From: a virus
Reading direction: 5' to 3' (one strand)
Length of the DNA: 50,182 nt
Virus record (IMG/VR): IMGVR_UViG_3300028908_000002
Span: 1-50,182 of that record
Position numbers and translations under genes: made by a program. Below the pieces are notes generated by a model, which was not told where the DNA came from, made no database searches, and was given only the letters and a program-made list of their open reading frames with translations. Below, piece after piece: positions 4,625 through 45,598 of the stretch (its first letter is position 1; each line of letters opens with the position of its first letter).

Positions 4625-6964
4625 TTAATACTCGTACTGATGTGTTGTATAGAATAACGTCAAACTGTTCAGTATCACATCAGTACCTCTAAATTCAATG
4701 TAAATATTTGAACCCTTATTCCCTCGTGTAGGGAATGGAACTCTCTCTGCTACAACCTTATCGTCCTTGTGTTGGGCTTTGTACTTCTCTGTCGGGTGTT
4801 CTTGTTCTAACACTAAACGCTGATCTATAAAAGCCTTTACTTTCAGCTTACCTTTTTCGTTCAAGAACTCTTGACTAATGGCGTAGGTTAAAAACTCCAA
4901 CCACACATCAGCCCTGTATCCCGTAAATGTACCCGTTCTCAAGTAGAAGGATTTATACGCTTCATCATCAAATAGGGCGTATAAAGCTCCATTCCTTGTT
5001 GTGGCATACAGCTTGTCCTCATAGGCGTATATATGCACATAGCCTTTGTTAGCCTTGTGTAGATGCAATGTCCTCGTCTTGAGATTAAACTCATACAGCG
5101 TATCGGTTGGTACGTGTAGGAGCCAATAGCTATCCTTCCACAAAGCGCTACTCCACGCTGTGGGATCGATGTCGGTCGGAATTGTGTACCTATCCCAAAA
5201 TGCGTGAGTCAGCGACTGTGAACCAAAGCCCATCTGTATCTTTAAGCCTTGATAGTGTAGCCACATAACATTAGCGTATCTCGCTACAACTGTTGTGGGC
5301 GCTCGTAAATAACTATCACTGTCCACACGCTTAACTGTGAATGTGCCGTCAGTGGACACCGTGTAATTATTGTAGCCGTCAAATACTAATAGGGAATTCT
5401 GTATTCGTTCTATATGTACAATGCCCCGCTCAAACGCTAAAAACTGTAAGTTAGATATATAATCAGGCTGTCCTTGTTTGCTATAATATAGCCGTGTATC
5501 GTCAGACCTACGGAAGAAGAACAGAATGCCTTTGACAATATCAAGTCCAACAACATCTATGAAATCCTTATTTAGTTTACCTCGTGTAGATAACTGCGGC
5601 AGCCCTATCATCTCAAAAGGGTCAGTAGTGTCAAGTGTTATTGTGGCTTTAGTTATACGGTTGCCACTTGCATCTCTTGCATCCACCTCACCTATTAGGT
5701 AATAATTAGCCGTATCGGGTGGATTGTAATAAAACCTAACTTTATCTACCTCATTGTTTATCTCCAACAAATCGAATGTCAATTCATCTGATAGTGTGCC
5801 GTAGTACGCTACATCTGTGATTGGTGCAGACTCTACACCTATACAGCTGTTGTACTGTGTCATTGTGAAACTGTGTTGGAATGTGTTACTGTCGATAACC
5901 TTCCTCGCCTCCGCTCTGTACTCCTCTAACTTATCCCCTATATAATCAGTGGCATCGTTTACAGCCTTAGCCTCGTTAGGCAACTCTTGTTTAAGTCTGT
6001 CATATACCTCAGTGAAAAGCTTACGCCAATCGTAAGCTTTTTGCGAGTTAGACATTACTGGGTCAGATTGTATCCTGTTATTCTCAACTGCTATGTGTTC
6101 AGCAAATGTAGATGAACTATCCCACTTCCTTGTTATAAGGTCATTGTTGGTTAAACGCATACCTTCAAAGAAATTGTAGTAGTTCGTGGTGATGACTTTG
6201 TCTTGATTAACACTGCCCACATTTCCACTGTACAATAAGTTATAACAGGCTTTCTCTGTCTCTTTATACTGATTTTCAAACTTAACTACTGTTTCATTCT
6301 TCTCTGTTACACCTGTATCAGATGAAGTGTAGTTCTTATATGCAGATTGTATTGTAAATATACGCTTCTCCGCTTCATTATAAAGCCTTAACTGCTCGTT
6401 TTTATCTGTACTATCCTCTACACTCTTGAGTATATCCTGCGTGTCCTCTATGAAAGTCTTAGCCGTTACATTAGTGTTGTTATATGTAATGGTTAAGTCA
6501 GCGGGTAGCACCGCAAGTATAGAGGACAATCCAGCTCGGAGCATCTCAAATGTGTACTGATTAAGTACCCTGCCTTGTGTTAGACTGTTGTTAGGTGTGC
6601 TTACAGTCATAGACCCTCTGTTCTCAATTATTAAACTGTTAAACGACTTACTGCACTTACAATTTGACACCGCTATTGGAGACCCATTGTATCGTGCTGA
6701 GTATATGTTATGATTGTAAACGGCTGTGGCTAATGGGTATGAGTCTTGTACCGTGCATGACTCACCTCTTATCTTATACTCGTACCTATAAGGCAGACCT
6801 GCGTTACCTATGTAACGATCCTCTCTTGTAGGTACTAAGCTACCCTTGTAGTGTTCTATGTTCCACCCTTCTACTGTGAAAGGTTGATCAACTTTAGTGG
6901 GTGATGTTTGATTGTTCACTGCCCCACTAAAGTTATAGAACACCTTTTGTTGTGTTCCTTGCAT
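4625..6964 (-). CDS. Large tail (nozzle-like, beta-propeller) protein, 779 aa
   Basis: The first third is helical (residues about 110-350). The rest is beta-rich with recurring blades of the form YYSKQGQPDYISN, VFDGYNNYTVSTDGT and LYATTRNGALYALFDDE, which resembles the propeller domains of podoviral nozzle or tail-stabilisation proteins. It opens with FSGAVNNQTSPTKVDQPF, a short N-terminal strand-rich arm common in tail proteins. It is placed between the lysis/fibre cluster and the internal virion genes. I infer the tail nozzle (functional equivalent of T7 gp12 or P22 gp10); no sequence-level match could be tested. Confidence 0.55.
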   Translation of the reverse strand: MQGTQQKVFYNFSGAVNNQTSPTKVDQPFTVEGWNIEHYKGSLVPTREDRYIGNAGLPYRYEYKIRGESCTVQDSYPLATAVYNHNIYSARYNGSPIAVSNCKCSKSFNSLIIENRGSMTVSTPNNSLTQGRVLNQYTFEMLRAGLSSILAVLPADLTITYNNTNVTAKTFIEDTQDILKSVEDSTDKNEQLRLYNEAEKRIFTIQSAYKNYTSSDTGVTEKNETVVKFENQYKETEKACYNLLYSGNVGSVNQDKVITTNYYNFFEGMRLTNNDLITRKWDSSSTFAEHIAVENNRIQSDPVMSNSQKAYDWRKLFTEVYDRLKQELPNEAKAVNDATDYIGDKLEEYRAEARKVIDSNTFQHSFTMTQYNSCIGVESAPITDVAYYGTLSDELTFDLLEINNEVDKVRFYYNPPDTANYYLIGEVDARDASGNRITKATITLDTTDPFEMIGLPQLSTRGKLNKDFIDVVGLDIVKGILFFFRRSDDTRLYYSKQGQPDYISNLQFLAFERGIVHIERIQNSLLVFDGYNNYTVSTDGTFTVKRVDSDSYLRAPTTVVARYANVMWLHYQGLKIQMGFGSQSLTHAFWDRYTIPTDIDPTAWSSALWKDSYWLLHVPTDTLYEFNLKTRTLHLHKANKGYVHIYAYEDKLYATTRNGALYALFDDEAYKSFYLRTGTFTGYRADVWLEFLTYAISQEFLNEKGKLKVKAFIDQRLVLEQEHPTEKYKAQHKDDKVVAERVPFPTRGNKGSNIYIEFRGTDVILNSLTLFYTTHQYEY

Positions 6965-12849: not shown

Positions 12850-15800
12850 TTATCCCAACTGTGGGGTTAAGCCGTATGCTCTTGTGCCGTACTTAAAGTT
12901 AATATAACCAGCCTCGTACAACCTCTTAGCCCAAGCTCCTCTTTGTGCACCATCATCCATTCCGTTTGCATTGTTACCACTTACCGGAACATATACTCTA
13001 ATCTCGCTAAGCGTTGCATTTGAATACATAGTTCCGTTAACAGAGCCGCCTACTATGGTTAAATAACCGTTGTACTGTGCATCGTAGGAACTTATGTTAC
13101 CTTTGTACACGCCGTCCACATAGACTCTTGTCTTCAAGTCTGATGTGTCATGTAACAGACAAATGTGGTGTGGTGCACTTGTGAACTTAGATTGGTCGAG
13201 GCTTACATACCCTCCGTTGTTGTGTCCGTTTTCAAAGGACACCCAAAACTTATCCGTAGTCCTCCAACCTACAACCAAACAATCGTTGTTCGAGTCTGAA
13301 GTCGAAAAGCTACCTAAGAAGTAGTTTTGGTCTAAGTTCTCCGGCTGTACCCAGAAAGATATGATCCAGTCTCGTTTACCTAACCATACACCGTTTGAGT
13401 TGTTGTATGCTTTAAGGTAATTCTTCCAAGCTCTTCTTGCAAACCAACCTGTTTGATTCCATGACGCACCCTTCCTCCAAACGAATGTTCCAGCTGACAT
13501 CTTCTGCTGCATCCACTCTTTGTTTTTCGTTACCTCTTTCACAATACCGTCTAACGGCAAGTATAATGTTTCAGTCCAAGAAGAGTGCCTCAACACATTA
13601 TACACACTCGGAACCATACCTGTCGTAGTATTTATGTAGTTCTTACCTACGATAGCAACCTCGTCTCTCGCCATCCACATAAAAGTATAGCCGTCCATGT
13701 ATCCTGACAATCTGATGTCTCCACCTGCTTGTAGGCAGTTGCAGCCGTCAATAAAACTAACTACCGTGTTAAATGTCAAACCGTCATTGAATACCATAAA
13801 AGTATGACCAATCAAATGGTCTTGACTTCCATCACTTGGTAGTGGTCTCATGTTGGCTTTCTTCACTCCGTTGTTAGTGAAATAAAACACTGGAGCTGTA
13901 TTCACTTGTCCATTTGTACCACTGATAGTGTTCTCGCCAGTAATCGCTACCTTCTTAAAGCCTTGTGTGGCATTGTGATACACAGGGTAAAATGTCCTCG
14001 CTTGTGGCAAATCACCTTTCCACTCTAAAACATTAGAGTTGTTCATCACAAGTTTAGCGCTTTGAGTGTCGTCATCATACTCTACAATGTTCTTGTCATA
14101 CACATACAGCCAAGCGGTTTGACCGTTTGTTCTCATATAAAAGCCTCTATGTTTACCACCTTTAGCTTTATCTACCCATGCGTACTCCACCTCTGCTTTA
14201 CATTCATCTGTTGGAAGATCATCGGGGAACTCATACACATTTTTAAATCTGTAACGAGCCTTGTAATCTCCTATTGCTGCTGCTAACTCTGTCGGTACTT
14301 TGTCATTCTCTGCGTTGTCTATGCCCCTAATATTCTCGACTACAAGCTCAAGATCAATTGTGAGTTCCGTATCATCGTTAAGAACTATGATAAGGTCTCC
14401 GCTTGTATCATCACGCTTAAACTCTTTAATGTCCTTATCTGACAGTGCCTTAACTTGATCCGCTACCGCTTTCTCACTGACAAATTCAGTGTTTGAAGCG
14501 TTATCGGTATCTCTAACATCACCTCTCATTGGAGGATAGCCTACTTTTAGCTCTGTGTCATTAGCGAGTGTAATGATGTATTGCATAGCTACATCGTCCT
14601 TGCTGTATGACTTGACTGTTCTCTCGGCTGCGTTGTCAATAGCTGTTCTAACCGCTTTTTCAGTCGGGAACACGCCGTCTTCAGCTGCATCAGACGCTCT
14701 GACGCTTTCAATGTGCGCTATAATGTCTATCCAAGCTATTTCAGTCTTGGATGTTCCATCAGCCGATGTGAATGTAAGCTTCTTGTTAGTTGCATCATTT
14801 TCAACTGTTTTAATGTTGTTGATATCAACTGAAACAAGCTCATTCCCATCCTCGTCCTTAAGCTTCAAAGTGCCGTTGTTGTATGTTCCGTCTTTTACAT
14901 ATATGTCTACCGCTACATCGTCAAGGTCTATGGTTTTCTTAGTGTCATCTGCAAAGGTAATAGTTAAAGTATGCTCGTCAGTGTCAGCTGTAAAATCCTT
15001 CACTAATTTAGCACCTGTAACTTTATCTACCTTAGTGTCCAATGCTGTCTTAACTGCTTTGCTTGTCGCAAGTTCGTCATCACTGTCATTGATAGCTGTC
15101 TTGATGACAGTTGTATCGACTTTCTTGTCAAGTTCTGTTCTGACTGCTAACTCTGACGGCACATCGTCATTTGTAGCGGTGGAACTGTCTCTTACTGATG
15201 TAACAGGATCAATATCATTGAACGCTACCTCAAGCTTTGTTCCGTCATTAAGTTCAATGACATACTTACTGTTCACATCGTCCTTCGTATAGGACTTGAC
15301 AAGCTTATCTTTGTTAGCCTTAACAACAGTAGATACGGCTGCTTCTGTCGCTGCTTGTGTAGTACTTGCAGCTGTTGGGTCTGAGTTAACACTTGTAACC
15401 AAATCAATTAAATCTGCGTACGCTATTTCAGTTTTAGTTGTACCGTCCGCCTTTGTAAACACAAGCTTCTTGTTGGTGGTATCATTCTCGATTGTATCAA
15501 CATTGTTAATGCTTATAGATACAAGCTCGTTGCTGTTTTCATCTTTTAACTTCAATGTACCACTGTCGTATGTAGCACTATCTGCATGAATATCTACTAC
15601 TATATCGTCAAGGTCAATAGTAGTCTCGGTGTTATCCTCGTACTTGATAGTTATACTGTGCTCTGTTGCATCAGCAGTGAAATCCTTGACAAGCTTTGCA
15701 CCTGTTACAGCGGTATGCTTCTTGTCAAGTTCGGTACGGACAGCCTTCTCTGACGGGATTACAGTGTCTTCCGCAGACGCACTGTCTCTCACTGATGTAA

Positions 15801-22845: not shown

Positions 22846-22915
22846 GCTTCTATTGTAGTGTGGTACGCTCACATGAAACACTGAACATGCTCCTGCTACG
22901 CAGTCGCTGATTATG

Positions 22916-22954
22916 TTGTGTAGAAGCAGTTACTCCGTAACTACTCCTACACAA
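22916..22954. repeat. Module hairpin 1, copy A
   Basis: Outer arms TTGTGTAG and CTACACAA enclose an inner stem AGTTAC/GTAACT with a TCC loop. Confidence 0.8.
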
Positions 22955-23068
22955 TGAAAACTTAAGCTTTGCTTAACTACAAACGCTACACTACTAAAAA
23001 TTTAAGCTTCAGTTAAGAATTAATCTAACCTTAACAAAAACGCTCCTGCTACGCAGTCGCTAATTAAG

Positions 23069-23109
23069 TTGTGTAGAACACTCCTGCTACGCAGAAGTGT
23101 ACTACACAA
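23069..23109. repeat. Module hairpin 1, copy B (inner stem replaced)
   Basis: The outer arms TTGTGTAG/CTACACAA are kept, but the inner stem is ACACT/AGTGT with CCTGCTACGCAG, itself a copy of the module's leading mini-hairpin, in the loop. Confidence 0.75.
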
Positions 23110-23201
23110 TAAAAACTTAAATCTGCCTTACATAAAGGCTTTCTCTTTCTAAAATTTAAGCTTAATTTAAGTTTTAATCAAATCTTAAACCAATCTTAAA
23201 T

Positions 23202-23243
23202 CGTATTTTACCTCTTAACCTAATCGTTAAGAGGTAAAATACG
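23202..23243. repeat. Perfect palindrome P1, 18-bp arms, 6-base loop
   Basis: Arm CGTATTTTACCTCTTAAC (23202-23219), loop CTAATC, perfect complementary arm 23226-23243. No T-run follows on either strand, so it is not a typical intrinsic terminator. Immediately followed by GAGTGTACCACAG. Confidence 0.9.
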
Positions 23244-23396
23244 GAGTGTACCACAGAACTTATACATTCAACATTACATCGTATGCTATGTAAACTTATT
23301 TCAAACTTAATTATTTTAACAATGAAAAGCCTCTTCGTGGGCGCAAAGCGTTACACACTCACAGTAAACGCTCCTGCTACGCAGTCGCTGATTATG

Positions 23397-23435
23397 TTGT
23401 GTATAAGCAGTTACTTCGTAACTACTCATACACAA
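23397..23435. repeat. Module hairpin 1, copy C
   Basis: Arms TTGTGTAT and ATACACAA: the G-C closing pair of copies A and B has become T-A on both sides. Inner stem AGTTAC/GTAACT with a TTC loop. Confidence 0.8.
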
Positions 23436-23523
23436 TGAAAACTTAATCTAACCTTAACCCATTCTACACCTAAAAATTTAAGCTTCAGTTAAGAATTAAT
23501 CTAACCTTAAACCGATCTTAAAC

Positions 23524-23565
23524 CGTATTTTACCCCTTAACTTAAGGGTTAAGGGGTAAAATACG
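23524..23565. repeat. Perfect palindrome P2, 18-bp arms
   Basis: Arm CGTATTTTACCCCTTAAC, loop TTAAGG, perfect complement 23548-23565. Compared with P1, one T-A pair in the stem is changed to C-G on both arms. Confidence 0.9.
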
Positions 23566-23645
23566 GAGTGTACCACAGCACTTACACACTAAATATTGCA
23601 TTGTATGCTATGTTAAACGCTCCTGCTTCGCAGTCGCTGATTAAG

Positions 23646-23684
23646 TTGTGTATGAGTAGTTACTTCGTAACTACTCGTACACAA
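23646..23684. repeat. Module hairpin 1, copy D (longest stem)
   Basis: An almost continuous 18-bp stem. TTGTGTA pairs with TACACAA, a T/G wobble follows, then GAGTAGTTAC pairs with GTAACTACTC around a TTC loop. Confidence 0.8.
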
Positions 23685-23772
23685 GGAAAACTAAAATTAA
23701 CCTTAACCCATTCTGCTCCCAAAAATTTAAGCTTAATTTAAGCTTTAATCAAACCTTAAACCAATCTTAAAT

Positions 23773-23814
23773 CGTATTTTACCCCTTAACCTAATCGTTA
23801 AGGGGTAAAATACG
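23773..23814. repeat. Perfect palindrome P3, 18-bp arms
   Basis: Arms as in P2 (CCCC/GGGG version) but with the CTAATC loop of P1. Followed by GAGTGTACCACAG. Confidence 0.9.
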
Positions 23815-24467
23815 GAGTGTACCACAGCACTTACACACTAAATATTGCATTGTACAACATGTAAACTAAAATTAACCTTAAGCGTTTTAGAGCTAAAAGC
23901 CTTCAGTGGGTGGTGTTAGGGCGCGAACCCCTACCCTCCTTTGCCCCACCCCCTCCCCCTCACTCCTCACGCTCCACTCTTCGCACACAATACATTAGTC
24001 CGTTGCACACACGCCATTTTCAGCCGTTGCACATCGTCGCACATGACAGGAACACGGAGTAAAGAGACGCTTTAACCATCGCACATACAGCTAAAACGAG
24101 CATATTACATCATGTTATGTTAACACGGTGTGCGGGATTTTAAGCGATTTTATAGCCTTACCCTTAAAATGACCCATTTTTTACCAGTTTTTCGCTCTCC
24201 GTTCGATTTAGAGCCATTTTTGAGCGAAATTTTTAGATTTTTGGAGTGAAAAAGTGAAATAGGTGGCAATCAAAACCAAATAAAATTAAAAATATTTAAT
24301 AATTAAAGATATTTAACTTTTACAGTGCGCATTGTAAAATAAAGCCTCGTTTATGTTTAGTGATGTGGTGTCAGGGTGTCAAAATTCGAGTGTGCCACAG
24401 ACGGAAATTGCAGGGAGTGGAGTTTTAACGGAACTCCAAAAGTGAAAAAAATCCCAATTTTGGTACG

Positions 24468-24877
24468 GTAACTTTTACGGGTAATTTTTTATCGGGGAAA
24501 TTGTTACTCGTTTAAAAGCCTAAATTTAGGTATTATCTTATATAGTAACAATTTAACTTTAATATTTAGCATATATATATAAAAGGAAAAATATTGGTTT
24601 AAGGAAATTTTAAGTTTAAGGAAAATTTAAGTTTTAAAATTTAAGCTTTTTCCGTTTAAGTTTTATTATTATTATTATTATTATTGAAAAAAAAAGTTTG
24701 AAAAATTACTTGCTAAAAAGTTACCCGACCAAAAATTTTAAGCCCTAAATCCAGGGTTTCGGAGCGTAACAGGTAACTTTTAACCAAAAATAAAAAGTTA
24801 CGGCACCAAACCTTAAACAGTTACCGCCCCTCAAAAGCCCCAAATTTCGGGCGGTAACAAATTAAGCGTTTTGTTAC
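24468..24877. repeat. Cluster of GTTAC/GTAAC sites
   Basis: Ten copies of the pentamer in either orientation at 24468, 24503, 24545, 24720, 24766, 24773, 24797, 24820, 24854 and 24873. Two of them form a perfect 10-bp inverted repeat, GTTACCGCCC (24820-24829) with GGGCGGTAAC (24849-24858). Confidence 0.65.
24663..24683. repeat. (TTA)7 microsatellite
   Basis: Seven TTA units followed by an A9 run nearby, inside the most A+T-rich part of the gene-free region; could ease strand opening. Confidence 0.8.
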
Positions 24878-25011
24878 CCACCCCGAAACTTAAACGGCTT
24901 CACTGCTAAAGCAAACTCGATGCTCCGAGTGTACCACACAAATATTTTACACCCGTAAGCCCAATCGACTCAAGCGTATATAAGATGACAGACCACAAAG
25001 AAAGGCTTTTA

Positions 25012-25176
25012 ACACGGTGTACAAAGTGATTTTTCGTTTAAGGTTTCTCCGTGTCATGCCGTTTTGAAGGGGGGTAAAATCGATACACAAAGCCAAAACA
25101 GATGTATTGTACATAAAGCGCAGGAATACACAAAGCCCTTTACCCTACTGTATCGAAGGATTTACACGGTGTACAA
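25012..25176. repeat. Direct repeat of ACACGGTGTACAA, two copies
   Basis: Exact copies at 25012-25024 and 25164-25176. A third, partial copy (ACACGGTGTGC) is at about 24123. Each contains the small palindrome ACAC-G-GTGT. Confidence 0.6.
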
Positions 25177-25183
25177 TGCTTGT

Positions 25184-25287
25184 TTACCCTTATATACCAC
25201 AATTCTAAGCATATAATGCCGTGTTCACCCTTACATACTACAATTTTTACACTGTACGATGTCCGTTTACCCTTACATACTACAATC
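25184..25287. repeat. Three iteron-like repeats at 41-42 bp spacing (candidate origin)
   Basis: Core pattern TT(A/C)ACCCTTA(T/C)ATAC(C/T)ACAAT; the nine-base TYACCCTTA starts at 25184, 25225 and 25267. Spacing close to four helical turns puts all three on one DNA face. Replication-initiator binding is an inference. Confidence 0.6.
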
Positions 25288-25614
25288 AAAAGAGCATACC
25301 ACAGTTAAAATTTTGTACCACACAAATAAACCACCCAAAAACGCCAAATTTTTAACGCCAAAATTTAAAATGCACTCCAAGCACATGACATCCCACACTC
25401 ATAAGTAAACTTAATTTTACCTTGTCAAGCCAAATTGCGACATTGATTTGTATTCCTACAACGCTACATTTTAAACTAAAATTTAAGCCCATTTTATATA
25501 TTATATGTTTATACAATGCACCTTAAACACATGACATCACACAAAAATTGACAGAAAACGCAAACTTTTTAGAAAGAAGGCTTTTATTTAAGCGTGTATT
25601 AAGGTTAATTGTAC

Positions 25615-26220: not shown

Positions 26221-27156
26221 ATGTTACAGGTAAAACATGTAATAAAAGTCTTAAGGGGTTTGGATTTAGAGGTTAAAGTTACTGTTACAAAAGAAGGCTT
26301 TTACAAACTAAGGTTAAATAGCTCAGAATACATAATGAACGATACAGCTGATGTAAGAGATACGATCACCCGCGAGGGCGCGTATCTGATTAGGCTTACC
26401 CTCGATAAGACATCTTTAACCGATGATCAAATCAAGCTATTGGCAGTAGAAGGCGTTGAAGCCGCTTTTGAGGGCTACAAAGTCAAGAAGGTCAAACCCG
26501 TACAATACATTAAAAACGCCGCATTGTGGCTTGATCCCCATAAACATGAATGGGATCATGACATTGAAGTTGCAGTAGCGGCGTTTGACACCCAATTATT
26601 GTGTACATGTTCGCCGTCTGATGATAGCAATTGGACTTACATTAATGAGCGGGTTGAGGATTTTTTAGAAGACCTCTTTTACTGTTCGGCGATACCGGAT
26701 CAATATGCAATATTATCCTATAATGGTAAAGTGCTATTTTTAGCTGATAAAGAGGCTAAAACAGTTACATATAACAATGTGGATTATGTCATTCAAAAGC
26801 CGTTGTCAGAAGATGTTGCTAAGTGGGTGAACGAGAGGATTTTACACCATTTGGTCAAGATTGAGAAATATCTTAAAGTTAAAGAGGTCATTGCGATGAC
26901 CCCGCTATATCCTCTATGGGAAAAGCGATCGACCCTTCTAATCAATACACTTTTACCGTCTAACTATCTTGAAAAGGTAGTAATAGAAGACGGTGATAGG
27001 AATGAAGCTTGTAAGTATCTCATGCAAGAGTACCGCTTAATCGGTGAGAGGTTGAAGAATAGTAAGAGAGAGCTGTATGAGAAGGCTATGCTTACCATAG
27101 CACAAAAGTTCAACGATGATGTTAAATCGTTGAATGCTTATATTGACGGGCTATGA
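26221..27156 (+). CDS. Unrecognised early protein, 311 aa
   Basis: Starts one base after the previous stop with GAGGAG upstream, so the two are co-translated. Mixed alpha/beta fold, Lys/Glu-rich, no transmembrane segment. The C-terminal third is helical (NEACKYLMQEYRLIGERLKN). Phage-specific by appearance; no motif suggests an enzyme. Confidence 0.6.
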   Translation: MLQVKHVIKVLRGLDLEVKVTVTKEGFYKLRLNSSEYIMNDTADVRDTITREGAYLIRLTLDKTSLTDDQIKLLAVEGVEAAFEGYKVKKVKPVQYIKNAALWLDPHKHEWDHDIEVAVAAFDTQLLCTCSPSDDSNWTYINERVEDFLEDLFYCSAIPDQYAILSYNGKVLFLADKEAKTVTYNNVDYVIQKPLSEDVAKWVNERILHHLVKIEKYLKVKEVIAMTPLYPLWEKRSTLLINTLLPSNYLEKVVIEDGDRNEACKYLMQEYRLIGERLKNSKRELYEKAMLTIAQKFNDDVKSLNAYIDGL

Positions 27157-27177
27157 GAGGCTTTTTAGGGTACTATT

Positions 27178-27233
27178 ATATAGGAAGGGTTACAGAGTAA
27201 CCGTTTCTATATGGCTATACTACTTTGTAGTAT
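27178..27233 (+). other. Two consecutive hairpins between early genes
   Basis: A 16-base-arm hairpin (27178-27193 with 27197-27212, two mismatches, core GGTTAC-AGA-GTAACC) is followed by ATACTAC-TTT-GTAGTAT (27217-27233). Likely transcript-processing or attenuation structures. Confidence 0.55.
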
Positions 27234-27291
27234 GGCTACTTTGTAGTATTCTTTAAAGGTCTTAGACCTAATTTTAAACAAAGGATCGACT

Positions 27292-27523
27292 ATGAATGAG
27301 AAAAGTAAAGAGCGATATAAAAAGCTTGAAATTCTAATGCAATGTCGATCTATTCCAGAGCTGTGATAGAGAGGCTTTATATATACAAAAAAGCTTTACT
27401 AAAGCTTTTGCAGTAGAGGGGCAACCCATTACTATAAGAAAGAGTCTTAAAGAGGCGGAGATCGAAAAGGTTAAAAGCCTGATAAATAAAGAGAGAAGGG
27501 ATTTAGCATGTACATTCCAATAG
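27292..27523 (+). pseudogene. Small early gene apparently split by a frameshift
   Basis: ATG 27292 after ACAAAGGATCGACT gives a 24-residue peptide (MNEKSKERYKKLEILMQCRS...) that stops at 27366. The +1 frame is open from 27338 to 27523, with protein-like helical content (KSLKEAEIEKVKSLINKERR). A +1 shift near 27338 would fuse them into a protein of about 75 residues whose end overlaps the next start by 16 bases. Options are decay, a base-call error or programmed shifting; there is no obvious slippery run at the junction. Confidence 0.4.
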
Positions 27524-27741
27524 GTATACTAATTTTGTTGTTACTTTTTATACCCGGATTTTTTGAGTTGGCATTGCTATTGGCAGGTTTAGCCGTAGTA
27601 GGCGCTATTGTAGTAGCGATCGGTGGAACTGTTTTAGGTTTCATCGTTAGCTATGGGATAGTTAAAGTAGTGGCGGTCATCGCCGTTGTAGGTACATTTA
27701 TATATGTATCTGTAACAGACTTAAAATCCCCGCCTACTTAA
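27508..27741 (+). CDS. Small hydrophobic membrane protein, 77 aa
   Basis: Nearly all hydrophobic, with about three transmembrane segments (residues 3-20, 21-48, 50-68) and a short polar tail. An early-expressed inner-membrane protein of unknown role; superinfection exclusion or host-envelope modification are possibilities only. Its stop codon lies in the loop of a hairpin (27719-27754). Confidence 0.55.
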   Translation: MYIPIGILILLLLFIPGFFELALLLAGLAVVGAIVVAIGGTVLGFIVSYGIVKVVAVIAVVGTFIYVSVTDLKSPPT

Positions 27742-27754
27742 GGGGATTTTAAGT
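27719..27754. terminator. Hairpin at the end of the membrane protein gene
   Basis: Arms ACTTAAAATCCCC and GGGGATTTTAAGT (13 bp, perfect), loop of ten including the stop codon. The T-rich ends would work as a terminator in either direction. Confidence 0.55.
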
Positions 27755-27756
27755 TA

Positions 27757-27762
27757 TATAAT
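27757..27762 (+). promoter_or_regulatory. TATAAT box upstream of the 250-aa protein
   Basis: TATAAT directly after the preceding terminator hairpin, 95 bases before the next gene; transcription would start in front of the leader hairpin at 27784. Confidence 0.5.
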
Positions 27763-27783
27763 GGTACAATACACACATTGAAG

Positions 27784-27828
27784 CCTTTAAAGAGTGTCAT
27801 AGTCTGTAACACTCTTTAAAGGTTTTAT
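27784..27828 (+). terminator. Leader hairpin with T-run (terminator/attenuator)
   Basis: CCTTTAAAGAGTGT and ACACTCTTTAAAGG form a perfect 14-bp stem with an 11-base loop, followed by TTTTAT. It sits between a TATAAT box and the gene, so it may attenuate that transcript. Confidence 0.6.
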
Positions 27829-27857
27829 ACCTAAAATTTTACAAAAAGGATTTTATT

Positions 27858-28610
27858 ATGAACGGATTTCAAGGTTTTAACGGATTTGGAGCGCCACAAC
27901 CAACAATGGCGACAGAGACTCAACCTATGCCAATGCCAATGGATCAACCAATGGCGACAGAAACTCAACCAGCGCCGATGACAACAACTACAACAGGAAC
28001 AGAGAGTAAAAGAGCTAAAAGGTTGTCAAAAACTGCAATATGGAAGTTAATCAGTGAAACACAAAGTTATCAGAATGGATCAATTCCGGCTGATGTTCTG
28101 GCTGTCCTAAAAGCTCATATCGAACCGAAGTCAGGAGGATTTGAGAAGACGGAGATCGATCCTAATCACTTTGTGTGGGATTTGAACGGTGCGGAGATCG
28201 CAAGAGTCGATCACATTTTGGGAGTCTTTTTCCTAAGTTCTGATTTTAGTAAGGGCATGACCCGCACTAAGACCACTCATAATTACATCTCTCAATTTGT
28301 AAAAGAGAGGGATACAGAGCTTAGGAATAAGCAAATGGAGTTAGTAGCCGCTACATCGGAGGCTCTAAACCGCCAAGATATTCAAACGGCTATGAACTTA
28401 CAAAATGAGATCCAGAGTCTCATAGAGGAATTAAACGCACCGTCTAAAGTGAAAAGAGAGAGAGCGACAGAGGTTTTAACCGAAAAAGCAAAAAGCGGAG
28501 TACTTGCAACAGAAGCCCCGCAACTATATACCAATAGTTTAGGGGTAAATAAGCAAGAAGTTATCACAAGACTCCAAGAGGCGGGTTACACTCCCGATCC
28601 CTCTAAGTAG
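27858..28610 (+). CDS. Unrecognised early protein with Met/Pro/Thr-rich N-terminus, 250 aa
   Basis: Residues 1-55 are low complexity with two copies of PMATETQP. Residues 60-170 look folded (AIWKLISETQSYQNGSIPAD, FEKTEIDPNHFVWDLNG), and the rest is helical. ACAAAAAGGATTTTATT precedes the start. The N-terminal composition resembles that of the protein at 32359, hinting at a related role in replication or nucleoprotein assembly; not proven. Confidence 0.6.
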   Translation: MNGFQGFNGFGAPQPTMATETQPMPMPMDQPMATETQPAPMTTTTTGTESKRAKRLSKTAIWKLISETQSYQNGSIPADVLAVLKAHIEPKSGGFEKTEIDPNHFVWDLNGAEIARVDHILGVFFLSSDFSKGMTRTKTTHNYISQFVKERDTELRNKQMELVAATSEALNRQDIQTAMNLQNEIQSLIEELNAPSKVKRERATEVLTEKAKSGVLATEAPQLYTNSLGVNKQEVITRLQEAGYTPDPSK

Positions 28611-28638
28611 TCTCTCAAAGGGTTAAGGCTTTACTGCC

Positions 28639-28751
28639 TTGATCCTTTTGTTATAGTGTAGCAAATTAAGCGTAATTTTACGGCACTATTGTAAGTTTTC
28701 GCCTCCTTTACTTACAATGGTGCATAGACTACACTATAACAAAAGGATCAA
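28639..28751. repeat. Long inverted repeat, 23-bp perfect arms, with inner stem
   Basis: 28639-28661 is the exact reverse complement of 28729-28751. Inside, CACTATTGTAAGT (28684-28696) pairs with ACTTACAATGGTG (28710-28722) with one mismatch. The right arm contains AAAAGGATCAA, the phage's recurrent ribosome-site sequence, and the left arm begins inside a terminator-like GGC/GCC hairpin. Confidence 0.8.
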
Positions 28752-28766
28752 TAAAAAGGGGTAAAT

Positions 28767-29051
28767 ATGACGCTTGAATTTATGAGAGTATTCAAGGAGT
28801 ACCAAGATCAGATCGATCGTGATCTGATTTTGTGTACTCCTAAGGCTATAAAAGAGGTAAATAAGGAGCTTACGGAGTATTATATAAAAGCCGTAAGCTC
28901 CAAGAGTGTAGCGGTTTTGTATAAAAGTTTGGTAGCGGAATACAAAAAGTATTACGCTAACAACAAATACTGTACAGAAGTACCCTTCGAGGTATTGCAG
29001 CATGAGACATTAGCGCATAAAGTGCTATTGTCCTTACATAGTGGGATTTGA
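28767..29051 (+). CDS. Unrecognised small early protein, 94 aa
   Basis: Soluble helical protein (RVFKEYQDQIDRDLILCTPK, AEYKKYYANNKYCTE), Lys/Tyr-rich. AAAAGGGG seven bases upstream sets the start, just outside the long inverted repeat, which may control it. Last gene of the early block before a convergent gene. Confidence 0.55.
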   Translation: MTLEFMRVFKEYQDQIDRDLILCTPKAIKEVNKELTEYYIKAVSSKSVAVLYKSLVAEYKKYYANNKYCTEVPFEVLQHETLAHKVLLSLHSGI

Positions 29052-29383: not shown

Positions 29384-29418
29384 GTACGATAGCGGCTTAT
29401 TTAACCGCTTTATCGTAC
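29384..29418. terminator. Terminator-like hairpin at the end of the primase-helicase gene
   Basis: GTACGATAGCGG (29384-29395) pairs with CCGCTTTATCGTAC (29405-29418) with a two-base bulge. On the minus strand it is followed, after about ten bases, by CTCTCTTTTATATT, so it probably ends minus-strand transcription. Confidence 0.6.
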
Positions 29419-32096
29419 ATTTCAAGGCATTGTGTGAGACATCCGATCAAAGTCTTGTGCATATTTAGCTTTGTAGCCCGATCTATTGCATCGACTAAAT
29501 GTTTCCTATCTCTTATGATCAGCGTGGACGGTATCCGTCGGACTACTCCGTCCACTTTGTACAGTGTAACAGGCACGGGGATAAGCCCGTATTTAACAGC
29601 CCTCGTCTTGCTTGATAGCGTGTCGATCACATCTCCGACCGCTATATTCTCATCTAAAGCCTCTTTAAATAAGGCTTTTAACTTTCTCCTACTACACAAA
29701 TTCACACCGGCGGCATCTAATATGGTACGCAACTCCGTCCACTCTCTCCATTTCCAAGTGTGAGTAGTCTGATCCATGTTCAATTTCTTCATGATCCAGT
29801 CTGCCACATGATCCACATCGTCTGCAAGGTCTGCCCTCTCAATCTCTTCAAGCTCTGCCACTTGCTGTGGCGTAACCACTTTGGAGGCGTACTTCTGCAT
29901 GTTATTGTCTGCCCACTTAGAAGCCTCGACGGGGTTTAATTTAGCCCACTTAAGAATGTTAACGATGTAAGTTCCGATAGCGTGTGTAACAACCTTCATA
30001 ACGGTAGCCGTGTCATACTTCTCTATCAAGCCCGTCTCATTGAAGGGATTTATACCACTGCTATCAAATAGCATTATTCTACTCTGCATCTGCGGTTCAA
30101 GGCTATCATACAGAGACGTAGCGTTAGCACCGAACAATATAAATGCACCGGTACGCAATGATACAGTGCCTTTATGCTTAGGGCTTATGTCTGTATGTGT
30201 ACCTTGAAAGGCTGCCTTTAAAGCGTTCAAGGCTTGACCTTGACCCTTGAAGCTATGGGACGAAATCTCATCGAACATGAGACAAAGCCTTGACACTACA
30301 TCCCTATAATCTACTGCCGACCTTGTGTCTTTAACGAGTTCCGTTAAGTCTATGCCCTTCTTATTGGTAAGGTTAAGCGTACGAAACACATTTATCAATG
30401 CTGACTTACCCGCACCCGATGGCGCTTCTACTAACAAGGCTTTAGGTCTGTTGAATGGTGTGAGCCACATCGTTAAACTAAACTCTGCAATCAACAATGG
30501 TAAGTCTTTCCAGTGTTTCATATAGGTCTGTACAATGTCATCGTACGCCTCTTTTGTTACACCGGTCAAATCCTTAATCATACGCAAATCAAAGGCTTGA
30601 CGCACATTAACCACCGTCTTACCCTGCTCGGATACACTGAACATAGTTGTATCACGGGGAGCTAAGAGGGCTAACTCTATTTCCTCGTCTGCAATGACGG
30701 CAACACTATTGGATGCTATCACTTTTAATATAGTGTCTGTCAGCGTGATCTGATCCAACAACTGAGGCTTTTCACCCTCTTCCGTTGATCGTAGGACTTT
30801 CTTATTGTAGTCCTTGATCATCTTTGCCATGTCAGGCTTGAAGAGGAAGCGGCGCCAATACTTGTACATATAAAGCTCAAGTGTACCGTCTTGCACACGA
30901 ACCCTATTTGCACCCGTAAGTGTGCCATCGTATCTCAGACCTCTTAAGTATATGTTACCCCTACTATCCACTTGTGTAGCGAGGATTAACCACAGTAGCG
31001 TATTGTAGTCTATGTATTGCATAAACGACACGGGGTGAGGGTACAGCTTATCCACCCTTAAACAGATCAGATGTACCACTTCAGCGAGGAGTTTCTCCCC
31101 GTGTTCACGATACATGTCTTGCAAAGCCTCTAACGGTGGTGGTAAGGCTATACGATGACCTGCATCTCCAAACTGTGTTACGCAAGTATTACCACCACAA
31201 TAGTAGCGCAACAAGCCATCGCCTTGTTTGACTACCCAAGCGTAGCGGGGATTGTTAGGATCGCTGTGCTTATCTGCATTGTGCAAACATCGCACATTGA
31301 CTTTCGAGGTAGGCTCTACACCGTTTATAGCTGGTGTGAGCCACCTATCTAAATCCCCTATTAGCATAGTCTTGCCTACTAAGTGGTTGAGGGATTGATC
31401 ATCTACCGCTGTTATTGTTACTTCTGTATCACACCTTACTTCCGGTGTATCAGCGTGTGATACTAAAGCCTCCTTAAACTCCTTCTGCTCCGTTTTATTG
31501 TAGTGTTCTGCTACGAGTGTAGCCCCGTATTGCACATAATACACCTGATCCTTCATGCCTAAGAAAGAGGCTTTCTCTTTATTGTACGCTTCAAGATCAC
31601 CTGTTACCAATGTAGGGGCAAACAAGCGTGTTACATCTTTGCATGACTCATCAGCTGTCAATCCGAATTCAGCGTTTATGCTTGACCATACAGTCTTGTA
31701 ATTATGTACTGTTAAGCCTACTATAGGTAACACAAGTCTGACTCTTATGTCAGATGTTCTGCCGTAATTCTGTGTGGGGATTAAGACATAGCTGTATCCT
31801 TGTAACGCTTCAGCTATGTTATTCAAGCGATCGATAGTGGCAGTGTCGATATCAAAGGCGATCATATTGCCTACACCTATGAGGTGCTTCTTGTGCCTAT
31901 GACCTCTATCGTATATGCCCATTGATGAAGCGTACCACAACATATGCTGTGCCACCTCTTCTAATGTCGGTAAGGATAGTTGTGTGAAGCCGAAGGTTGT
32001 AGCTTTACCGTAGTCGAGCTTTTGATCCTCCGTTAGTAGTGTGTCGGGTTTAGCGTGTTTAAGTTGCATACTACAACTTATAGTATAATTGTTCAT
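29397..32096 (-). CDS. Primase-helicase (AEP-type primase plus SF3-like helicase), 899 aa
   Basis: Probable replicative initiator. N-terminal archaeo-eukaryotic primase signals: MIAFDID (about 76-82), RVRLVLPI, and DESCKDVTRLFAPTLV. A zinc-binding element (CLHNADKHSD ... YYCGGNTC) spans residues 267-304. The C-terminal ATPase has Walker A EAPSGAGKSAL (about 556), Walker B LCLMFDEIS (about 604) and sensor AFILFGANATS (about 650). It is alone on the minus strand within a plus-strand block, with its own promoter. TTTATAGAAT and AAGGTGGAA precede ATG 32096. Domain roles are from motif recognition. Confidence 0.75.
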   Translation of the reverse strand: MNNYTISCSMQLKHAKPDTLLTEDQKLDYGKATTFGFTQLSLPTLEEVAQHMLWYASSMGIYDRGHRHKKHLIGVGNMIAFDIDTATIDRLNNIAEALQGYSYVLIPTQNYGRTSDIRVRLVLPIVGLTVHNYKTVWSSINAEFGLTADESCKDVTRLFAPTLVTGDLEAYNKEKASFLGMKDQVYYVQYGATLVAEHYNKTEQKEFKEALVSHADTPEVRCDTEVTITAVDDQSLNHLVGKTMLIGDLDRWLTPAINGVEPTSKVNVRCLHNADKHSDPNNPRYAWVVKQGDGLLRYYCGGNTCVTQFGDAGHRIALPPPLEALQDMYREHGEKLLAEVVHLICLRVDKLYPHPVSFMQYIDYNTLLWLILATQVDSRGNIYLRGLRYDGTLTGANRVRVQDGTLELYMYKYWRRFLFKPDMAKMIKDYNKKVLRSTEEGEKPQLLDQITLTDTILKVIASNSVAVIADEEIELALLAPRDTTMFSVSEQGKTVVNVRQAFDLRMIKDLTGVTKEAYDDIVQTYMKHWKDLPLLIAEFSLTMWLTPFNRPKALLVEAPSGAGKSALINVFRTLNLTNKKGIDLTELVKDTRSAVDYRDVVSRLCLMFDEISSHSFKGQGQALNALKAAFQGTHTDISPKHKGTVSLRTGAFILFGANATSLYDSLEPQMQSRIMLFDSSGINPFNETGLIEKYDTATVMKVVTHAIGTYIVNILKWAKLNPVEASKWADNNMQKYASKVVTPQQVAELEEIERADLADDVDHVADWIMKKLNMDQTTHTWKWREWTELRTILDAAGVNLCSRRKLKALFKEALDENIAVGDVIDTLSSKTRAVKYGLIPVPVTLYKVDGVVRRIPSTLIIRDRKHLVDAIDRATKLNMHKTLIGCLTQCLEMYDKAVK

Positions 32097-40794: not shown

Positions 40795-40976
40795 CAATAC
40801 CGTACGAAGACATGATTGAAGAACTGGAGCATGAAGCTGTATCCAACAGTGTTCATGTTAACACCGTTAAGGTGTACGCTGAGGATGAGGATGGTGAGTT
40901 GTATCGCATAGACAATATACGATACGATGACGAATTGGACGCAATAGTGTTAGACATAGCTGAAATAACACAGTAG
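40791..40976 (+). CDS. Unrecognised small acidic protein, 61 aa
   Basis: Four-base overlap with the previous gene. Pattern VHVNTVKVYAEDEDGELYRI followed by YDDELDAIVLDIAEI is like the strand region of the neighbour, suggesting a small duplicated fold. A hairpin follows (40986-41004). Confidence 0.5.
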   Translation: MTIPYEDMIEELEHEAVSNSVHVNTVKVYAEDEDGELYRIDNIRYDDELDAIVLDIAEITQ

Positions 40977-40985
40977 CGTTTAACA

Positions 40986-41004
40986 GGGGGCTTTTAAAGC
41001 CTCC
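40986..41004 (+). terminator. Hairpin after the small-gene chain
   Basis: GGGGGCTTT-T-AAAGCCTCC with one mismatch, again carrying AAAGCCT and GGCTTT. Lies in the 66-base gap before the next gene. Confidence 0.45.
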
Positions 41005-41042
41005 GATTAAGCGTTAAGCTAAATACAACACAAGGAGCTGAC

Positions 41043-41762
41043 ATGACAGTAGAGGATAAGAAGTTGATATTGAAATATTCAAATAGAGCCTTTAGGTGGT
41101 ACGCAAAAGAGGGAGCTAAGAAACTCTTGTGTGCCACATTGGGCTTGGTTGCTGTACCTATTGGTTTACTGTTCAAGCGCACATACAGCCATAGGCGGTA
41201 TGTTGGCGACAACAAAGAGTACTTGGAATGGCTGAGAGCGCAGTATGGTTACAGCAATGTAACATTAAACCCTAAGTCAGAAGTAGCATCGTACAATACA
41301 AAAGACATACCGTTCAAGTGGTATAGGAACTCTAAGGACGCATTAGGGGATTTGTACTGGGTCAGAGATCACCGTAAAAGCCTTAATTCGTATGTACATA
41401 ACCTACAATGGGCTATGCTACGAAACCCGTGCGGCGGATTAGTCCTTGCTAATGCGGGAGATTATGTCGTTATAGACTTGATGATAGGTAATAGGATAAA
41501 AGCCTTTAAAAACGATCCTAAGAACTCTATTGACGGGTGGAGTTATATTGAAGCTCGTATCAATGGAAAGAAAAAAGTAAAGGGATTTTATTACCGTGAT
41601 ACTAGAGGCTTAGGGAGAGGCAATAAGGGGCTTGAAATCAAGATCGGTGCTAAACTTGAAAATGTCCTTTGGCAGAATAATATCCTTTATAGTCGTAAGG
41701 GTTATTTGCAGGAAGATATAAAAGGCACTCTCCAAATAGGAAAGAAGTTCATTTACAATTAG
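41043..41762 (+). CDS. Unrecognised phage protein with hydrophobic segment, 239 aa
   Basis: A basic N-terminus is followed by one hydrophobic stretch (residues 27-44, LLCATLGLVAVPIGLLF), then a soluble region with WYRNSKDALGDLYWVRDHRK, SYVHNLQWAMLRNPCGGLVL and repeated short basic strands. Phage genomes often carry proteins of this look among small accessory genes; I cannot name the family with confidence. AAGGAGCTGAC precedes the ATG. Confidence 0.55.
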   Translation: MTVEDKKLILKYSNRAFRWYAKEGAKKLLCATLGLVAVPIGLLFKRTYSHRRYVGDNKEYLEWLRAQYGYSNVTLNPKSEVASYNTKDIPFKWYRNSKDALGDLYWVRDHRKSLNSYVHNLQWAMLRNPCGGLVLANAGDYVVIDLMIGNRIKAFKNDPKNSIDGWSYIEARINGKKKVKGFYYRDTRGLGRGNKGLEIKIGAKLENVLWQNNILYSRKGYLQEDIKGTLQIGKKFIYN

Positions 41763-45448: not shown

Positions 45449-45520
45449 AGCGTCCATTTTAAAGCCTTTTAAGGGTATAAGACCCTTACTGAAAAGCTAA
45501 AGTCGCTTAAAATGGACGCT
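45449..45520. terminator. Nested inverted repeat ending the plus-strand block
   Basis: Outer perfect 14-bp arms (45449-45462 and 45507-45520, AGCGTCCATTTTAA), a middle pairing AGC..TTTT with GAAAAGCT, and an inner AAGGGT-ATAAG-ACCCTT. Probably a transcription barrier in the convergent region. Confidence 0.65.
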
Positions 45521-45523
45521 GAA

Positions 45524-45598
45524 AATCGATTTTAAGAGCCTTTATTATTCAACTCGATAAAAACTACATTGTTAGAATAAAGGCTCTTAAAATTGATT
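45524..45598. terminator. 23-bp inverted repeat, bidirectional terminator
   Basis: 45524-45546 pairs with 45576-45598 with one mismatch (G/T) around a 29-base loop. T-rich sequence lies at both outer ends of the stem. Placed between the convergent small-gene block and the HNH gene. Confidence 0.7.

Follow-up and report, generated by a model that had tools for sequence, protein, structure and literature searches.

Does the long perfect inverted repeat that fills a gap between two genes of an uncultured phage act as RNA, as DNA, or hardly at all? The window in which it lies, i.e. the whole 50,182-base stretch of DNA analysed here, is an IMG/VR virus record (uncultured virus of bacteria), and its nearest though distant kin are Kafunavirus-type podoviruses, with 22-39% protein identity for capsid protein, DNA polymerase and terminase. 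Edwardsiella KF-1, Vibrio VPMS1 and Pseudoalteromonas PH1 were compared as representatives of this type. The closest relative found is a record of 54.7 kb, L014, which shares 47% terminase identity and syntenic ORFs of 181 and 311 aa, and alignment of the 181-aa ORF yielded no relative beyond it. The primase/helicase-like gene of the window (29397-32096, minus strand) lies on the strand opposite to the polymerase, as it does in L014, an arrangement unlike that of KF-1, VPMS1 and PH1. A tRNA scan of the window returned none, Rfam gave no match above the gathering score over the whole window, and a search of the record with PF00940 (single-subunit RNA polymerase) was without a match, as were its controls.

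The hairpin occupies the gap between a 250-aa ORF (27858-28610, plus strand), which belongs to no recognised family, and a 94-aa ORF (28767-29051, plus strand), and is preceded on the same strand by ORFs of 181, 311 and 77 aa. No homologue of the 94- or 250-aa ORF was found in viral contigs, phage records or the related records tried, genome contigs likewise held none for the 94-aa ORF, and PHROGs and Pfam gave no convincing family for either. A single-sequence model of the 94-aa protein is chiefly helical at low confidence (pLDDT 52). Assignment of the 250-aa ORF to the single-stranded DNA-binding protein of the relatives was rejected, the alignment being unconvincing.

An earlier, sequence-only reading of the locus had claimed a perfect 23-bp inverted repeat enclosing a second stem of 13 bp, and sequence comparison and simulation show the repeat to be real. 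Its left arm (TTGATCCTTTTGTTATAGTGTAG, 28639-28661, plus strand) and right arm (CTACACTATAACAAAAGGATCAA, 28729-28751, plus strand) are complementary at 23 of 23 positions across a spacer of 67 nt, all pairs being Watson-Crick without G-U or mismatch. It constitutes the longest perfect inverted repeat in the window and lies far above the maxima of 10-13 bp obtained from 60 first-order Markov sequences simulated with the dinucleotide frequencies of the window. The inner hairpin is present as well, with a stem of 14 rather than 13 bp that includes one G-U pair in RNA (28683-28696 with 28710-28723, plus strand) and a loop of 13 nt containing CUCCUUU. Together with a small 4-bp hairpin (CGUA-AUUU-UACG, 28670-28682, plus strand), both stems form a three-way junction in the predicted fold, and the RNA from 28611 to 28790 folds with -69.2 kcal/mol compared to -34.7 +/- 3.7 kcal/mol for 200 shuffles (z = -9.5). 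The left arm had also been said to overlap a terminator-like hairpin of the preceding gene; an overlap of 2 nt does exist, but with just a weak 5-bp AAGGC/GCCTT stem at the left edge (AAGGC-UUUACU-GCCUU, 28625-28640, plus strand), which is seen in the sequence and in the folds and is absent from the list of the terminator scan. Moreover, CUCCUUU of the inner loop (28697-28709) is complementary to the ribosome site AAAGGGG at 28755-28761 over seven pairs, one of them G-U, with a predicted duplex energy of -8.5 to -9.2 kcal/mol. A pseudoknot between loop and ribosome site is conceivable on the basis of these calculations, an idea weakened by the 1.4 occurrences of CCTCCTTT that are expected by chance in the window.

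The gap does not stand alone in its operon. In a record-wide structure scan, in which folding energy was regressed on G+C, the top three structured stretches of the whole record (27151-27270, 28621-28740 and 27721-27840) all coincide with gaps of this operon. The first corresponds to a leader at 27157-27295 (plus strand), which extends from the 311-aa ORF to a possible 24-aa ORF (ATG 27292) and comprises a long stem with two inner hairpins, while the third corresponds to a leader at 27777-27860 (plus strand) with a 19-bp stem before the 250-aa ORF.

The reading preferred here, and credited with roughly even chances, is that the leader is an intercistronic RNA hairpin of a polycistronic phage mRNA, serving processing or stability in the manner of an RNase III site. 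Several points favour a role as an RNA structure: the element lies between cistrons, two further gaps of this operon as well as the operon of L014 contain long hairpins, which in L014 covary, and the arm is not repeated elsewhere, as that of a repeated operator would be. Judged by gene order, transcription probably continues over the gap, so that a polymerase reading rightward across the 181-, 311-, 77- and 250-aa ORFs would copy both arms. The RNA would then fold into the 23-bp stem bearing the 14-bp inner hairpin and ending 4 nt ahead of the site at which ribosomes would load for the 94-aa ORF. RNase III cuts duplexes of this sort, perfectly paired over about two helical turns. A cut here would part the upstream (250-aa) from the downstream (94-aa) message, shielding the 3' end of the first and leaving the ribosome site of the second open; both the cleavage and its possible influence on expression are proposals. 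The feature expected of such a site, a long double-stranded intercistronic stem on the mRNA strand, is found here in the form of 23 bp between co-directional ORFs within a strongly structured stretch. On the other hand, L014 is devoid of the repeat, and of the two covariance models of the leader family described below, one does not hit the 23-bp leader and the other does so only at E 5. Compensatory changes in the 23-bp stem are not visible because neither a second copy of the leader nor homologues of the 94- and 250-aa ORFs were found.

The main functional rival, to which about one chance in five may be given, is translational control resembling that of T4 gene e, in which folding of long transcripts from upstream would obstruct ribosome access to the 94-aa ORF, whereas RNAs that begin within the leader would lack the left arm and be translated freely. 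Sequestered ribosome sites have precedents in T4 e, soc, 49 and I-TevI (PMC3014915). The claim that the repeat hides a ribosome site (AAAAGGATCAA) is correct in so far as AACAAAAGGATC, the strand that this phage commonly uses as ribosome site, forms part of the right arm. The sequence AAAAGGATC/AAAGGATC serves other ORFs as ribosome site, the starts at 27292, 32359 and 36503 standing 4 nt after GGATC and the start at 27858 being preceded by a variant of it. In the right arm, however, AAAAGGATC lies 17 nt from the ATG of the 94-aa ORF instead of the usual 4 nt, and no start codon is found at the usual spacing. The well-placed site is AAGGGG (28756-28761, plus strand), 5 nt before the ATG at 28767 and 4 nt past the stem. 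Hence, both this site and the start codon lie 3' of the stem end at 28751 and not inside the stem, as they would in the gene e type.

Control of this kind does find points in its favour. In the read-through transcript AAGGGG is predicted to be about half paired, since UUUACUGCC to the left of the arm, which forms the loop and 3' side of the weak hairpin at 28625-28640, can pair with GGGGUAAA. In addition, a promoter-like TTTACT-16-TATAGT with extended -10 is present at 28630-28657, and a second candidate recognised by eye, TTACAA-17-TATAAC, ends inside the right arm. Promoter-like matches are, however, not in excess, 28 being found where 26.5 are expected from shuffled sequence. Moreover, the mean predicted accessibility of site and start is 0.49 with the left arm intact and equally 0.49 with the left arm scrambled, and folding therefore gives no support to a switch operated through these arms. 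Shuffling of the left flank raises the average to 0.66, although 9 of 150 shuffles are as low as 0.49, and a mild effect of the flank on the ribosome site is possible according to these predictions. The proposed switch between termination and translation is likewise unsupported: the predicted accessibility of AAGGGG is the same with the left arm intact or scrambled, and the terminator scan lists nothing in the gap for either strand. From the suggestion of a leader RNA switch or an operator, the part that survives is thus a role as RNA structure.

A further, rather improbable reading regards the operon leaders as a new class of phage RNA switch and the 23-bp repeat as its derived form, in which the ribosome-site strand would have been captured by an inverted copy. 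In the syntenic operon of L014, three consecutive gene boundaries bear hairpin leaders that are nearly identical (13699-13780, 14228-14310 and 15220-15300), each consisting of AAGGCTTTTTAGGGTGCTA-loop-TAGCATCCTGTAAAGGTCTTATGACCTAA followed by an A-rich linker, AAAGGAT and ATG. A covariance model built from these three and the related window leader before the 250-aa ORF matches the window once more at 27215-27295 (E 0.0015), where it detects the 3' portion of a copy belonging to the leader that follows the 311-aa ORF, and also matches L024 at 12959-13033 (E 7e-6), L074 at 6044-6122 (minus strand, E 9e-4) and, weakly, the window at 40970-41045 before a 239-aa ORF (E 0.036). In the alignment of seven copies, three of which were found by the model itself, 7 of 12 pairs are changed on both sides. 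None of 500 shuffles equals this value and slid controls are far lower, the shuffles leaving shared ancestry in place. An alternative fold is available to the 3' stem strand of the conserved leaders, namely a small hairpin directly ahead of the ribosome site (AGGUC-UUAU-GACCU in L014, ACGUC-UUAU-GACGU in L024); since this hairpin uses the 3' strand of the long stem, the two folds may exclude each other. Overlapping stems occur in L009 (8388-8454) before a thymidylate synthase gene, where CCAGCTGTATAA/TTATACAGCTGG and AACCTGTTATACAG/CTGTATAACAGGTT have one strand in common and look mutually exclusive from their sequence.

Membership of the 23-bp leader in this family was rejected, given that model R1 scores it with 15.1 bits and an E value of 5.1 (28680-28757) and model R2 does not list it up to E 5. 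It resembles the family in belonging to the same operon, in spanning the whole interval between a stop codon and the start that follows, in beginning on the left with AAGGCTTT and in possessing the ribosome-site strand AAAAGGAT, but differs in the sequence of its stem, in having the ribosome-site strand locked within that stem, and in a displaced start codon. Because the left-edge AAGGCTTT and the ribosome-site strand of the right arm are common to both, the 23-bp leader may at most be a derived cousin of the family.

The same right arm is open to a different explanation, which merits similarly little credence, namely a recent inverted duplication of the leader's ribosome-site strand by template switching that left a perfect stem with little or no function. 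The right arm alone resembles the other leaders of the phage (AACAAAAGGATC) and the left arm is its exact reverse complement, the repeat is absent from L014, and 23 pairs of exclusively Watson-Crick type would also fit so recent an origin. Mutation by template switching is known to occur at imperfect inverted repeats (PMC7202029). A duplication, however, would leave to coincidence both the inner 14-bp stem and the strong hairpins in the gaps nearby, and long perfect repeats recur in the gaps of related phages.

Binding of a protein to two inverted 23-bp copies as DNA, i.e. an operator, is distinctly less probable. The arms are perfectly identical and placed upstream of an ORF, but at 0-2 mismatches of CACTATAACAAAAGGA only the two arms themselves are found in the window, the best other 31-mer match reaching 20/31, and viral contigs contain no exact copy. 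Furthermore, neither arm is itself a palindrome, and one position of the inner stem can pair in RNA alone, as G-U; the operator proposed earlier gained no positive evidence. Least probable by a small step is a transcription terminator, an invertible segment or a small transposon-like element, for although the hairpin follows a gene and the repeats flank a short segment, no terminator is listed in 28611-28766 on either strand, the stem is followed by UAAAAAGGGG and not by a U-tract, the flanks (GCC and TAA) show no target-site duplication, the repeat is single-copy in the record, and no recombinase was recognised among those ORFs, a part of the total, that were searched against family libraries.

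Other parts of the window are structured or repetitive as well. A long non-coding, A+T-rich region after the terminase gene (22900-25600) is filled with repeats, including 249-bp tandem copies and three near-identical hairpins of 18-19 bp (23202, 23523 and 23773), and between two of these hairpins a C-G pair is replaced by T-A with both sides changed. Upstream of the 181-aa ORF, a 41-bp unit (TTACCCTTACATACTACAAT...) is present in 2.5 tandem copies (25184-25286), a possible promoter or binding array. Adjacent long hairpins of 18 and 14 bp lie beside minus-strand genes at 45449-45598, in a stretch with a z of -8.8. Many relatives have inverted repeats made up of AAATCC-type units in the non-coding DNA close to their terminase gene (L012:42196-42299, L017:8153-8273, L019:8522-8685, L030:9741-9943, L050:6492-6608, L067:12761-12915 and L090:5688-5793), possibly as an origin or protein-binding array.

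In general, intercistronic hairpins in phage operons are of a known kind, so that the 23-bp repeat, taken by itself, holds modest interest for as long as no switch is demonstrated; the by-product of greater interest is the repeated, covarying leader family of the operon, which is both searchable and testable. Among known systems, the leaders of T4 gene e share with the present one a stem-loop in a leader read from upstream and a possible internal start, but differ in that a well-placed ribosome site lies outside the stem here and its predicted accessibility is independent of the arm. The promoter early stem-loops (PeSLs) of T4-like phages (cited in PMC4503421) are comparable as repeated intergenic stem-loop cassettes between early genes; PeSLs join promoter and terminator, whereas in the present gap no terminator is listed and promoter matches are at chance level. 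For the processing hairpin favoured here, the model is T7, whose early mRNA has five RNase III sites (PMC4858673). These, too, are extended stem-loops that separate genes of one direction within an operon and lie outside the coding regions, the likeness being one of position; the perfect 23-bp stem with its three-way junction is a difference, and cleavage of it is a proposal. Long perfect repeats of 25 bp in L082 and 20 bp in L090 also occupy gaps of related phages, alike in position and not in sequence. In VPMS1, a perfect 22-bp hairpin (L012, 31551-31572 with 31615-31636) separates two genes of the same direction and precedes the following start codon by about 30 nt, although its sequence and flanking genes differ, a DUF2815 DNA-binding protein being encoded upstream. 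Uncultured kin of the Kafunavirus-type podoviruses appear to part early genes by long RNA hairpins.
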